Source of the DNA: an uncultured Pelagibacteraceae bacterium
Lineage (GTDB): Bacteria > Pseudomonadota > Alphaproteobacteria > Pelagibacterales > Pelagibacteraceae
Direction: 5' to 3'
NCBI GenBank assembly: GCA_902586125.1
Contig: CACIGI010000005.1
Span: forward strand, 1-64,000
DNA length: 64,000 nt
Below are positions 25,991 through 31,658 of the stretch, one piece after another. Both the position numbers and the translations under genes were made by a program. Below the pieces are notes generated by a model. It was given only the letters and a program-made list of their open reading frames with translations, had not been told where the DNA came from and searched no databases. Each line of letters begins with the position of its first letter. Position 1 is the stretch's first letter.

Positions 25991-26671
25991 TTATTTAAAA
26001 ATTTTTTTGAGTTTTTTGAGGTTATCTAAATTATCAACCGTGTACCATTTTTTTGGCATTACATCAGAAACGTATAATTGTCTGATTTTAATTAGTTTTT
26101 TCCATAGAATGTTAAAGTCATCAGTTGGTTTAATTTTATCATTAATCTTTTTTGGATTTAATATTTGAATACCAGTGCAGTAAATATCAGATTTTTGTTT
26201 TCTTGAAAGTTTTTGAACAATATTTTTTTTTCTAAAAATAAAGTCTCCTGTTAATCCTTTAATTGGTTTTGTTGGAATTAACATACACAATGGCTGACCT
26301 TTTTTATAATAATCTTTTTCAAGTTTTTTAAAATCAATATTAGTGACGTTATCACAAGTTAAGACATAAATTGGTGAGTTAAATGATTTAAATATAGAGT
26401 TGAATATCCACCAAGAATTACCTTTTTTATCTGTATTAATTATTGAAGAAACTTTCTCTTCAATTAAATGTTTAGCTAAAATAGGTCCTTTATAACCAAC
26501 AGAAATATGAACAAAATTTATATATTTTTTAAGTCTTTTGATACCTCTTGCTATTAATGAGGTTTGTTTAAATTTGACTAAACCCTTAGGTATTTTTTTT
26601 GTAATAGGCATTAACCTGGCTCCTCGACCAGCTGCCATTATAAAAGCATGATTTATTTTTTTATAAGTCAT
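25991..26671 (-). CDS. Sugar nucleotidyltransferase-like protein
   Basis: A 226-aa NTP-transferase. The nucleotide-binding signature AFIMAAGRGARLMPITKK and KGLVKF begin the protein, and YVLTCDNVTNIDF carries the metal aspartate. It probably activates a sugar phosphate or a small head group (for example a phosphocholine-type substrate, as in LicC) for surface polymers. It overlaps the SDR gene by 11 bases. Confidence 0.8.
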   Translation of the reverse strand: MTYKKINHAFIMAAGRGARLMPITKKIPKGLVKFKQTSLIARGIKRLKKYINFVHISVGYKGPILAKHLIEEKVSSIINTDKKGNSWWIFNSIFKSFNSPIYVLTCDNVTNIDFKKLEKDYYKKGQPLCMLIPTKPIKGLTGDFIFRKKNIVQKLSRKQKSDIYCTGIQILNPKKINDKIKPTDDFNILWKKLIKIRQLYVSDVMPKKWYTVDNLDNLKKLKKIFK

Positions 26672-27614
26672 TAGATTTCAGTCCAAATCTAATAATTTTT
26701 TCAATTTCAGACTGCGCTAATCTCTTTGCATTTTCAGAAGATACTATTTGTTTAAGTGGTTTTTTTAAGAAATTATTAAAATCAATTATAAAATATTTTT
26801 TGTTTTTAATTTTCATTTCTTTAGCATATCTCAACTCATCCTCGCCAATTAGATATTCATCTTGTCGATCACCTTTTCTGGATTGAATTATTTTATACTT
26901 ACCACCAAATTTTTTGGTCCAAACTTTTAAAAAATCAATCATTTTTGCAGATTTCATTTCTGCTGACAAAATTTTTCCATTTAATTTGTTTTTAAGTTTT
27001 AAGGCTTGATCAATTAAACTTACAGCTTCATTGACTGAGAAAAAAAATCGCCTCATGTAAGGACCAGTAGTAAATATAGTCTTATTTTTCTTATACATTT
27101 GTTTCCAAATTGGTAGAACAGAACCAGTGGACCATGTTACATTACCATATCTGACACAAATAAATTTAGTTTTGCTATAAGATTTTACCGATGAAAAAAG
27201 TCTTTCCATACAAGATTTACTTAAACCATAAATATTTTTTATTGGTGGTGATGCTTTATCAGTTGAGACACCGATAACAGTTGGAACTTTTTTGTTTATA
27301 CAAGCACGAACAACATTTGTAGATCCAAGTATATTTATATCAATACATTCAAATGGAAATCTTTCTGATAAATCTACAAATTTTGTAGCTGCTGCATGAA
27401 TTACAATATCAGGTCTAGTATAATTTAAACAATCATGTACAGACTCAATATTAGAAACATCTAAAGGCACCACTTCACAATTCGTTAAATTTTTCACTAA
27501 AAAATTTTGTTTGTTATTACGAGCACCAAGAAAAACTTTATATTTTTTCTTATAAAAATTAGCTAAATTTCTTCCGAGATAACCAGTGCCACCCGTTATT
27601 AGAATTTTTTTCAT
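26661..27614 (-). CDS. NAD-dependent epimerase/dehydratase (CapD/PseB-like SDR)
   Basis: A 317-aa extended SDR. The Rossmann motif is ITGGTGYLGRNL at the N-terminus. HAAATKFVDLSERFPFE and STDKASPPIKNIYGLSK match the CapD/FlaA1/PseB nucleotide-sugar 4,6-dehydratase group, and the active-site lysine is in GLSKSCMERL. With the nucleotidyltransferase it likely makes a modified nucleotide sugar for a surface glycan. Confidence 0.82.
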   Translation of the reverse strand: MKKILITGGTGYLGRNLANFYKKKYKVFLGARNNKQNFLVKNLTNCEVVPLDVSNIESVHDCLNYTRPDIVIHAAATKFVDLSERFPFECIDINILGSTNVVRACINKKVPTVIGVSTDKASPPIKNIYGLSKSCMERLFSSVKSYSKTKFICVRYGNVTWSTGSVLPIWKQMYKKNKTIFTTGPYMRRFFFSVNEAVSLIDQALKLKNKLNGKILSAEMKSAKMIDFLKVWTKKFGGKYKIIQSRKGDRQDEYLIGEDELRYAKEMKIKNKKYFIIDFNNFLKKPLKQIVSSENAKRLAQSEIEKIIRFGLKSNDL

Positions 27615-27655
27615 TATAAAATATTGTAAATTTGTTTATAATTTCAAATTAAATA

Positions 27656-28576
27656 ATGTCTATATCTATTCATATACCTTTTTACAATCCAAATCCTGAA
27701 AAAAAGGAGGGTCATAGAAATTTACGAAGATTTGATTATCTAAAAGAAAATATTGATAATTTAAAAACTCTTTCAATTAAAAATGATATTTTTGTTCACA
27801 CGCATAATGAGTTTTTAGATGATAAAAAATTAGATGCTAAGATAATAAAGCATCAAATAAACGATAGTGATTTAGATAAAGGTTATTTAACATGGAAATG
27901 CCGACCATTAATGGAAGAACAAAAAAATGATTATGAATATTTTTTATATTTAGAGCATGATATAAAATTTTCAGAGAATAATTTACAATATTGGCAGAAA
28001 CACCAAGAGCTGTTAAATAAAAAAAATTATCATCTTGGTTTTTTAATTTATGAGAAGAACCACGAAGACAAAGAAAATTATAGTATTCATATATTAAGGA
28101 AATTGAACAAATACATAGAGTTGGAGGGCAATAGATTTGTAGTAAATGATTGGGACAATTATTGTTGTTTTTGGATATATAACAAAGATCAATTTCTTAA
28201 ATTTTTGAAATCAAAATGGTGGTCTTTTAAAAAAAGAGCCCATAATTTCAAAATTAACTATGGTATAACAGAGAGATCATCAATAGGGTTTCATTCCTTT
28301 AACATGAATTATTTTAAAGCTACATTAATTCCTGATATAAATAATCAACCTGATCCAAATTGCTTTATAGAACATATGACTAATAATTATTTTGATAAAT
28401 TTCCTGAATTTAAAAATCAAAATTATTCAGATATTAGAGGCGTGTGTTCTTTAAAAATCAAAGATATTTTTGAGGAATCAAAAAATTTTAAAAAGGTTAA
28501 GGAGAACTTTATCTTAATAAAACTTTATAAATTATTTTTATGGAAGTTTAGATTTATTACTAGAAAATTCAACTGA
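27656..28576 (+). CDS. Putative glycosyltransferase-like protein of unknown family
   Basis: A 306-aa soluble protein. The start ISIHIPFYNPNP and the later YFLYLEHDIKFSENN resemble the first strand and the acidic DxD-like site of GT-A glycosyltransferases. The rest (VNDWDNYCCFWIYN, RSSIGFHSFNMNYF, PNCFIEHMTNNY) is not recognised. It is divergent from the sugar nucleotide genes across 41 bases, which supports a glycan role. The C-terminus is basic and hydrophobic and may bind the membrane. Confidence 0.55.
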   Translation: MSISIHIPFYNPNPEKKEGHRNLRRFDYLKENIDNLKTLSIKNDIFVHTHNEFLDDKKLDAKIIKHQINDSDLDKGYLTWKCRPLMEEQKNDYEYFLYLEHDIKFSENNLQYWQKHQELLNKKNYHLGFLIYEKNHEDKENYSIHILRKLNKYIELEGNRFVVNDWDNYCCFWIYNKDQFLKFLKSKWWSFKKRAHNFKINYGITERSSIGFHSFNMNYFKATLIPDINNQPDPNCFIEHMTNNYFDKFPEFKNQNYSDIRGVCSLKIKDIFEESKNFKKVKENFILIKLYKLFLWKFRFITRKFN

Positions 28577-28627: not shown

Positions 28628-29902
28628 TTAAAATTGTTCTGACTCGGTTGAGCCATCCATTGCTGTAGTTGAGCTGTTTCCACTACTTATTGTATTAGAA
28701 ACCGCATCAAAATAAGATGTACCTACTTCTCTTTGGTGTTTTACACTAGTATAACCATCTTTTTCACGAGCAAATTCTTGTTGTTGAATCTTTGAATAAG
28801 CAGCCATACCTTCTTTTTTATATTTTTCTGCTAATTCAAAAATTGCAATATTTTGTGTATGAAAACCAGCAAGCGTAATAAATTGAAATTTATAGCCCAT
28901 TTTACTTATTTCTTTTTGAAATGAGGCAATTTCTTCATCGGACAAATGTTTCTTCCAATTAAATGATGGAGAACAATTATACGCTAAAAGTTTTCCAGGA
29001 AATTTTTCATGAATTGCATCTGCAAATTTTTTAGCTTCTTCAAGATTTGGTGTAGCTGTTTCACACCAAATTAAATCTGAGTAAGGCGCATATGCTAATC
29101 CTCTTGAAATTGCTTGTTCAATTCCCGATTTTACATAATAAAACCCTTCTGGAGATCTTTCGCCAGTTAAAAAAGGTTTATCGTTTTCATCAAAATCATT
29201 TGTAATTAATTTCGCGGCATTTGCATCTGTCCTAGCTAAAATTATCAATGGAACATCAGCAATATCAGCTGCCAATCTTGCAGCTTTTAAATTTTTAATC
29301 ATTGTCCCTGTTGGTACGAGTACTTTACCACCCATATGACCACACTTTTTTTCACTAGCTAATTGATCTTCAAAGTGAACACCTGCTGCACCAGCTTTAA
29401 TAAATTTTTTTGTAAGTTCAAAAACATTTAATGGACCTCCAAAACCTGCTTCACCATCAGCAATGATTGGAAGCATATAATCAATTCTTTTCTCTTTTTT
29501 CATATCACCGTCTTTTAGTTCCATATGTTGAATTTGGTCTGCTCTTAACAAAGCATTATTCATTGACTCAACAAGTTTTGGAGCACTATCATATGGATAT
29601 AAAGATTGATCTGGGTACATTTCGCCAGCACTATTAGCATCTGCAGCTACTTGCCAACCACTTAGATAAATTGATTTTAGACCAGCTTTAGCATGTTGAA
29701 CTGCTTGATTTCCTGATAAAGATCCTAAAGTACTTATATAATTTTCTGTATTAAGAAGTTTCCAAAGTTTAACTGATTGTTGTTTACATAGGGAATATTC
29801 AATTTTTATTGAGCCTCTTAATCTTTCAACCTCATCATGGGTATAATCCCTTGTTATTCCTGCAAATCTTTTTAGTTCGTATGAGATGTTTTCTGCACTC
29901 AT
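28628..29902 (-). CDS. aceA: Isocitrate lyase
   Basis: Glyoxylate shunt enzyme that splits isocitrate into glyoxylate and succinate. The 424-aa length fits the bacterial form. The catalytic loop KKCGHMGGK is intact, and [31 protein letters not shown] and [12 protein letters not shown] are typical. GAGGTAAC lies 11 bases before the ATG. Malate synthase is not adjacent. Upstream is a spacer filled with TTTACAAA-like elements and a divergent ScfR/RamB-type regulator, which probably controls this gene. Confidence 0.97.
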
Positions 29903-29954: not shown

Positions 29955-30116
29955 TTAGTTAGAGTCGTTAAGTGTCTCAACTAAATCTTTCATTCCACTT
30001 GAACCCCAATCACAATGATCATCTCTCATGTAAATACCTTTGCTATTATGTCTAGCAAGATCCTCATTTTTTATGATTTGAGCCTCATTTTCTGTGTTTT
30101 TTTGTTTATCAGTCAT
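29955..30116 (-). CDS. 53-aa hypothetical protein upstream of aceA
   Basis: An ATG at 30116 opens a 53-codon frame ending TAA at 29955, on the aceA strand and 52 bases before the aceA start. The product is hydrophilic and acidic in parts, with a C-terminal core IYMRDDHCDWGSSGMKDL holding one Cys, one Trp and two Asp. It has no membrane segment. It probably shares the transcript with aceA and is controlled by the operator array just upstream. The function is unknown. Confidence 0.55.
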   Translation of the reverse strand: MTDKQKNTENEAQIIKNEDLARHNSKGIYMRDDHCDWGSSGMKDLVETLNDSN

Positions 30117-30127
30117 GTAAATCTTAT

Positions 30128-30219
30128 AATTTACAAAATTTACAAAATCTACAAAAAAGTATAAAAAGCTTGTAAATTAAGGAAAATAATTGTAAATTTT
30201 AATTTACAAAATTTACAAA
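30128..30219. promoter_or_regulatory. Array of TTTACAAA operators between aceA and its regulator
   Basis: Three 9-base direct repeats (ATTTACAAA, ATTTACAAA, ATCTACAAA) run from 30129 to 30155 with no gap. Two inverted copies occur at 30169-30177 and 30189-30197, and two more direct copies at 30202-30210 and 30211-30219. TTGTAAATT and AATTTACAA (30190-30209) form a perfect 9-bp dyad with a 2-base centre. The motif resembles the TTTGCAAA-type sites of RamB/ScfR regulators. Likely the binding zone for the adjacent regulator. Confidence 0.7.
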
Positions 30220-30227
30220 TAGAAAAT

Positions 30228-31658
30228 ATGAGTCAAAATGATTTAAAAATAGGACCAAAAATCAAGGCTTTTAGACGTCAACTAGGTCTTCAAGCTAATA
30301 AACTTGCGCAAGAGATAAATATTTCACCAAGTTATTTAAATTTGATCGAGGGAGGAAAAAGAAAAATTGACGGGGATCTGCTTTTAAAAATTTGTGAAAA
30401 ATTAAATATCGAACTTTCTCAATTAACATCAAAAGATGATGTAAATTTAGAGAATACACTTTCAGAAATTTTAGATGATAAATTATTTGAGGATCTTGAT
30501 ATCTTGGGACCAGAGGTTAAAGATCTCGTGGGAACTAATCCAAAAATTGGCAAAGCAATCGTAAGATTAGGAGATATCTTAAAAAAAAAAGATCATGAGT
30601 TAGTAAATAAGATTGAAAAAATTTCTGGAAAAATTGTTGATAATAGAAAGAACTCTTTTCCAGGTGAGGTTATTTCTGACTTTCTTCAAGAAAATAAAAA
30701 TTATTTTCCGAAACTAGAGGATTTTGCAAATAAGGTTTTTGAAAAAGTTCAAAAAAATAATCGTACAAGATATGTTGCTCTTTGTGATCATTTAAAATCT
30801 GAGTATGACATTATTGTTAAAGATGTTATCCCTGAGGAAAATAAACCTTTTTCCAAAATTTATAACAAAAATAAAAAAGAACTTTTATTAAGTGATTATA
30901 GTTCTTTAGAAACAAAAAAACTTCATGCAGCTGCACAAATTGCACAAGAAGGAGCAATTAAAGAAATAGAGGATTATTTAACTAAATTTACTTTTCCGTC
31001 AGAGGAATCTAAGAAATTAACTAAAATTGCTTTACTTAATTATTGTGGTGCCGCAATATTAATGCCTTACAAACTTTTTCATTCAGAATGTAAAAAACTT
31101 AAATATGATCTTGAGTTATTACAAAATACTTTCGCAACATCTTTTGAACAAGTAGCTCATAGAGTAACCTGTTTGCAAGATCCAAAACTACCTGGAATTC
31201 CATTTCATTTTTTAAGGGTTGATATGGCTGGAAATATTTCTAAAAGATTTTCTTTGTCTGGAATTGAAATTCCACGATATGGTGGTGCGTGTCCAAGATG
31301 GAATGTTTATTCTGCATTCACAAGACCTGGAGTTATTCAAAGTGCTGTAAGTAAAATGACCAATGGAGAAAAATATGTTTGTATTGCACGAACTGTTGAA
31401 AAAGGGATTGGAAGATTTGGAAGAACGAAAAGTATTTTGTCCATTGGGTTAGGTTGCGAAGCTAAATATGCAAAAGATTTCGTATATACTGAAAATGTTA
31501 ATTTAAGTGAAAAGTCATCAGAAATTCCAATAGGTGTGTCATGTAGAACCTGCGATAGATTAGATTGTTCTCAAAGAGCCTTTCCTCCTTTACACAAAAA
31601 ATTTGATGTCGATATAAACCTGAGAGGAGTTTCGGTTTATGTAGGTGATAAAAATTAA
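30228..31658 (+). CDS. ScfR/RamB-type XRE regulator (DUF2083)
   Basis: A 476-aa transcription factor. Residues about 10-70 form an XRE helix-turn-helix (FRRQLGLQANKLAQEINISPSYLNLIEGG). A central ImmA/IrrE-like region follows, with AAAQIAQEGA and LLNYCGAAILMP. The C-terminal DUF2083 has a cysteine motif SCRTCDRLDCSQRAFPP that can bind metal. This family controls short-chain fatty acid, propionate or glyoxylate genes (RamB, PrpR, MccR). Its place opposite aceA and next to a repeat array fits autoregulation and control of the glyoxylate shunt. Confidence 0.88.
   Translation: MSQNDLKIGPKIKAFRRQLGLQANKLAQEINISPSYLNLIEGGKRKIDGDLLLKICEKLNIELSQLTSKDDVNLENTLSEILDDKLFEDLDILGPEVKDLVGTNPKIGKAIVRLGDILKKKDHELVNKIEKISGKIVDNRKNSFPGEVISDFLQENKNYFPKLEDFANKVFEKVQKNNRTRYVALCDHLKSEYDIIVKDVIPEENKPFSKIYNKNKKELLLSDYSSLETKKLHAAAQIAQEGAIKEIEDYLTKFTFPSEESKKLTKIALLNYCGAAILMPYKLFHSECKKLKYDLELLQNTFATSFEQVAHRVTCLQDPKLPGIPFHFLRVDMAGNISKRFSLSGIEIPRYGGACPRWNVYSAFTRPGVIQSAVSKMTNGEKYVCIARTVEKGIGRFGRTKSILSIGLGCEAKYAKDFVYTENVNLSEKSSEIPIGVSCRTCDRLDCSQRAFPPLHKKFDVDINLRGVSVYVGDKN

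Follow-up and report, generated by a model that had tools for sequence, protein, structure and literature searches.

A conserved operator-like array over the divergent promoters of an ScfR-family regulator and the aceA unit in SAR11 bacteria

The window, that is the whole stretch of 64,000 nucleotides of Pelagibacteraceae DNA analysed here, contains a promoter spacer of 111 bp (30117-30227) with a transcriptional regulator gene on one side and a unit made of a small ORF and aceA, running leftward, on the other. The ScfR-family regulator (30228-31658, + strand) is 476 aa long and combines an XRE helix-turn-helix, an IrrE-like/GAF-like core and a ScfRs C-terminal domain, while aceA (28628-29902, - strand) encodes an isocitrate lyase of 424 aa, as identified with NCBIfam PRK15063 (725.6 bits, cut-off 562) and PF00463 (E 3.5e-113). 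The first gene of the aceA unit is an ORF of 53 aa (29955-30116, - strand), and the earlier note on this DNA, which placed its repeat array between aceA and the regulator, was therefore right about the adjoining regulator but not about aceA, which lies beyond the small ORF. Purifying selection acts on this ORF (pN/pS 0.20 from 84 distinct sequences), which has a near-invariant RGIYMRDDHCDWGSSGM core and adjoins aceA in almost every relative of the genus. It matched no Pfam or NCBIfam family and was absent from the class-wide sample except for weak matches; it is apparently restricted to SAR11, and is possibly a small partner of isocitrate lyase. The gene aceA is present in every genome with the regulator, and the two are divergent wherever the neighbouring contig is readable. 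The gene order in genome G026 (azlC, sfuA, sfuB, sfuC, an unknown gene, aceA, the small ORF and the regulator) matches the locus of P. ubique, in which the small ORF is likely SAR11_1241. In the window, the region downstream of aceA (25991-28576), which in P. ubique is occupied by the sfu iron transporter, contains genes of glycan type (nucleotidyltransferase, polysaccharide synthesis) and an ORF of 306 aa with no Pfam match; it looks like the edge of a variable region.

Within the spacer, TTTACAAA occurs exactly four times on the + strand, starting at 30130, 30139, 30203 and 30212. The four copies form two pairs of the type TTTACAAA-A-TTTACAAA, one on the aceA side (30130-30146, cores 30130-34 and 30139-43) and one beside the regulator start (30203-30219, cores 30203-07 and 30212-16), and the two outer pairs start 73 bp apart. 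Three further copies carry one mismatch: a third head-to-tail copy, TCTACAAA (30148-30155, + strand), and two inverted copies on the - strand, which read CTTGTAAA (30169-30176, GTAAA core 30172-30176) and ATTGTAAA (30189-30196, GTAAA core 30192-30196) on the + strand. The latter lies in the left arm of a perfect 9-bp dyad with a 2-base centre (30190-30198 / 30201-30209), which had been reported before and which we confirm. The earlier count did not include one more GTAAA core (30117-30121, - strand), which immediately precedes the start codon of the small ORF and is kept in 94% of 98 spacers. As a building block we propose two TTTAC (GTAAA) cores on the same strand at a distance of 9 bp; each start codon has one such pair next to it, and two inverted single cores lie between the pairs. 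The spacer holds four exact 8-mers, seven TTTAC/GTAAA cores and two 9-bp-spaced core pairs, and not one of these counts was equalled in 20,000 dinucleotide shuffles (means 0.09, 0.91 and 0.00, respectively), so the array is real and denser than chance allows. No 9-bp-spaced core pair was found outside the array in the 64 kb of the window. Lone TTTACAAA is near chance there (21 versus 16.7 expected), and only the paired form is informative, since isolated copies are close to background.

Among 98 distinct spacers of the genus, which are related, so that invariance overstates the independent evidence, six cores are 97-100% invariant (TTTAC at 30130, 30139, 30203 and 30212; GTAAA at 30172 and 30192) and linker positions go down to 42-60% conservation. 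The cores of the aceA-side pair are 97% invariant, the remaining 3% being alignment gaps, those of the regulator-side pair 99-100%, and the inverted cores 99% (30172-30176) and 100% (30192-30196). The third head-to-tail copy reads TCTAC, TCTAT or TCCAC among relatives and keeps its C in 57% of the spacers, against 97-100% for the six cores, and is therefore not a box of the same kind. Thus the seven copies originally counted are all there, four exact and three with one mismatch, but they are not equivalent, the third head-to-tail one not being conserved as a box. The regulator-side pair is TTTAC-TTTAC in the window's genus and mostly GTAAA-GTAAA in sister SAR11 genera and other alphaproteobacteria (upstream regions L035-L048 and L049-L058 versus L009-L033); its orientation has therefore been flipped while its place was kept. 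In genome G137 (L031 / L062), a partial second copy of the regulator's N-terminal part precedes the gene in the same frame (E 4.8e-23), the open frame is 575 aa long and the array lies ~280-350 bp from the homologous start, which may represent a tandem partial duplication of the HTH domain.

The boxes had been taken for an AT-shifted form of TTTGCAAA, a view that is not borne out by comparison with 24 alphaproteobacterial loci outside SAR11 (50-68% GC, aceA divergent from this regulator type, 160 bp upstream). GTAAA/TTTAC is strongly enriched in these loci (82 versus 15.7 expected, z 17), whereas GCAAA/TTTGC is not (22 versus 18.1 expected). Because GTAAA is enriched in GC-rich loci, TTTAC is the core that regulators of this type normally have in the class, not a product of the AT-rich genome of SAR11. 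Nine bp is also the commonest same-strand spacing outside SAR11 (10 versus 0.9 expected under random placement, with a maximum of 7 in 2,000 trials), and in many alphaproteobacteria GTAAA cores with this spacing are again found at regulators of this type. No TTTGCAAA was found within the spacer of any genus relative shown.

The array overlaps two promoters, which we assigned from conservation and position. On the aceA side, a -10 element TATAA(A/G) (30123-30128, - strand) stands exactly 6 bp before the ATG of the small ORF, TATAAA being found in 50 and TATAAG in 40 of the 98 spacers at -12 to -7 (90/98 together). Since this -10 is six bases away, standard promoter geometry would put the transcript start on the ATG itself, making the small-ORF transcript leaderless. 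The -10 is good and the -35 (TAGATT) poor; a conserved AATCTA (30146-30151), which overlaps the third copy, coincides with the -35 position. For the regulator, TTGTAA (30190-95) and TACAAA (30214-19), each with 4/6 matches by inspection, make up a weak candidate promoter (30190-30219, + strand), and it may be that this promoter is built from the boxes themselves; a sigma-70 promoter scan gave nothing above shuffles and did not call it. On the aceA side the boxes overlie the promoter from about -14 to -31, and on the other side they cover the stretch directly upstream of the regulator gene. The earlier link between an operator-like array, the ScfR/RamB-type regulator and aceA is thus upheld, and because the conserved array lies over both promoters, control of the glyoxylate shunt together with autoregulation is the natural reading; the tight control predicted earlier is an inference.

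The array is also nearly exclusive to this locus. Exact TTTACAAA-N-TTTACAAA was found at 40 sites in 147 SAR11 genomes, 35 of them within 200 bp upstream of the regulator, and the reversed-pattern control had three matches only in the whole table. TTTAC-N4-TTTAC was not above its reversed control in five genomes, and the window's genome (82% complete) has 11 such sites, of which the two in the array are intergenic and the other nine lie inside ORFs. The two outcomes that the earlier note had named as adverse to it did not occur: tandem sites were not found in unrelated spacers of the window's genome, and the array is kept in relatives with the same gene pair. We do not claim a wider regulon or a second target, since nearly all non-array sites checked are inside ORFs, but the missing part of the window's genome may hold one.

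In one sister genus, five genomes were found with aceA but no regulator. One of them is cut by a contig end; in the four readable ones the array has decayed or disappeared, although these are drafts of a single lineage and some of the losses may share one origin. Genome G050 keeps TATAGT before aceA and has TTACTATATTTATAAA at the position of TTTACTATATTTACAAA in its relatives; in G034 both TTTAC cores are missing and the inverted CTTGTAAA is altered, and in G002 and G108 the array is entirely lost. In G050 (L213), from which both the regulator and the small ORF have disappeared, aceA starts directly at the old promoter; its ATG follows TATAGT by ~7 bp, which would fit an aceA transcript without a leader.

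As for the protein, the ScfRs domain PF09856 covers residues 316-471 (198.7 bits, gathering 24, E 6.8e-59) and the N-terminal XRE HTH residues 12-65 (HTH_3, E 2.7e-11), and the fold is settled by a solved homologue, phmmer giving E 4e-61 against the structures of Mycobacterium tuberculosis PrpR (MtPrpR). In the named genome collection, the nearest homologues of the regulator come from single-cell genomes of uncultured Pelagibacteraceae. The four [4Fe4S] cysteines C355, C439, C442 and C447 (C-X2-C-X4-C plus the GAF-domain Cys) are present, and are kept in 54/54 SAR11 and 39/39 other alphaproteobacterial homologues. The CoA-diphosphate basic residues K206, R330, K339 and K401 correspond to MtPrpR K217, R338, K347 and K410, with K206 and K401 varying in some relatives. 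The acyl-selectivity residue Phe155 of MtPrpR is Gly in 54/54 SAR11 proteins and Arg159 is Ser in most, so neither MtPrpR nor MtRamB can serve as a guide to the ligand. Against the NCBIfam RamB equivalog NF038139 the protein scored 363.9 bits over the full model length, below the cut-off of 700, and the regulator is accordingly not filed as an actinobacterial RamB equivalog. The best reading is a predicted member of the [4Fe-4S]/acyl-CoA ScfR (ScfR/IsaR) family, with which it shares the trait of adjoining an acyl-CoA assimilation gene, here the divergent aceA.

Taken as a whole, the array is very probably best explained as a putative operator shared by the divergent promoters; the ScfR-family regulator encoded next to it would bind it and probably controls the aceA unit and its own gene together in this way. 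A regulator tetramer carrying a [4Fe-4S] cluster and a bound CoA ester would occupy the outer pairs, whose starts lie 73 bp apart, close to seven helical turns. It would thereby cover the small ORF-aceA promoter from -10 to -35 as well as the region where its own gene starts, repressing both. If the CoA ligand or the cluster were lost or changed, reflecting C2/acyl-CoA status and perhaps iron shortage, the repression would be relieved; alternatively, this could lead to activation via the inner inverted cores, as in Paracoccus denitrificans RamB, a class 2 ScfR reported to act as an activator (on acetate) and a repressor (on succinate) of its own target operon, mainly activating it (PMC10370305). 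With regard to iron, a microarray study of P. ubique under iron limitation found aceA (SAR11_1240) up 1.58-fold (P 0.091) and the regulator (SAR11_1242) up 1.60-fold (P 0.054) (PMC2864753), a small co-induction that hints at shared repression. It is conceivable, though we hold it only tentatively, that the regulator reads both acyl-CoA and iron and that the array switches the glyoxylate shunt on under iron limitation, cluster loss freeing both promoters.

The main competing reading is that the regulator on the array only activates aceA, by bringing in RNA polymerase or realigning it where the promoter has a poor -35. That -35, set against a good -10, speaks for it, as does the Paracoccus system, in which both boxes are needed for reporter expression on acetate and deletion of RamB abolishes induction (PMC10370305). 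However, the boxes lie across the promoter core and across the region where the regulator starts, which is a repressor-like position, and the regulator-less G050 keeps its -10 although its boxes have decayed, suggesting a promoter that is active without the protein. Pure activation is consequently possible but the less likely option, and repression as the ground state is somewhat favoured over it.

The remaining alternatives fare worse than a shared operator of the ScfR regulator. Binding of that regulator to the array is a prediction, which leaves some room for a global DNA-binding protein or another regulator as the true binding protein, the ScfR gene being an incidental neighbour; but a global protein would have many sites, whereas the tandem sites are near-exclusive to the region upstream of the regulator, decay where the regulator is lost and match the reported architecture of the MtPrpR site, and we consider this improbable. 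An RNA element such as a riboswitch or attenuator in a 5′ leader is more doubtful still: pairing between the inverted repeats is feasible and riboswitches occur elsewhere in P. ubique, yet the window has no Rfam match, the aceA-side transcript would start at the small-ORF ATG and have no leader, and the repeats are arranged in same-strand pairs that span the two divergent promoters. That the repeats are functionless, the product of chance or of AT-rich low complexity, might be thought of in a window of 30% GC where the lone 8-mer is near its expected frequency, but is refuted by the clustering never reached in shuffles, by cores more conserved than their linkers and by the enrichment of the same core in GC-rich relatives.

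In the literature searched, no regulator is named for the glyoxylate shunt of P. ubique. The array and its Fe-S-type regulator give the shunt of SAR11, a lineage among the ocean's most abundant bacteria, a concrete and testable switch with a possible link to iron; in P. ubique it would consist of SAR11_1242 with its operator. Among known systems, RamB of Corynebacterium glutamicum (class 1) belongs to the same family and likewise regulates acetate/glyoxylate genes; this archetype uses TTTGCAAA-type boxes. The SAR11 protein differs in falling far below the NCBIfam RamB equivalog cut-off, and where class 1 calls for a TTTGCAAA box its spacer carries TTTACAAA.

PrpR of M. tuberculosis is closer in architecture, being a homologous regulator with the same four Fe-S cysteines and a 9-bp start-to-start step. 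Its site, reported upstream of icl1 too, consists of two 8-bp boxes one base apart (8-1-8), TTTGCAAA-N-TTTGCgAA (PMC6765138), so that the box centre is GC there and AC here, and each site has one pair, compared with two pairs and two inverted cores in SAR11. Paracoccus RamB is, like the present regulator, an alphaproteobacterial ScfR protein divergent from glyoxylate-cycle genes with paired boxes upstream. The oligonucleotides used with it contain the boxes TGACAAACCTTACAG and TGACAATACTGACTG (PMC10370305), each of which, in our reading and not that of the authors, may be seen as two TKAC cores 9 bp apart. Its target operon comprises malate synthase and icl, whereas that of SAR11 comprises the small ORF and aceA without malate synthase. 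The ligand pathway of Paracoccus RamB is the ethylmalonyl-CoA pathway. Moreover, its boxes are 18 bp apart and its action is mainly activation, so that, by this analogy, the 73-bp arrangement of the SAR11 pairs and the proposed repression would not transfer directly. The kind of system, an acyl-CoA/iron-sulfur-dependent ScfR switch, is therefore already known, and it is the SAR11 version that is new.
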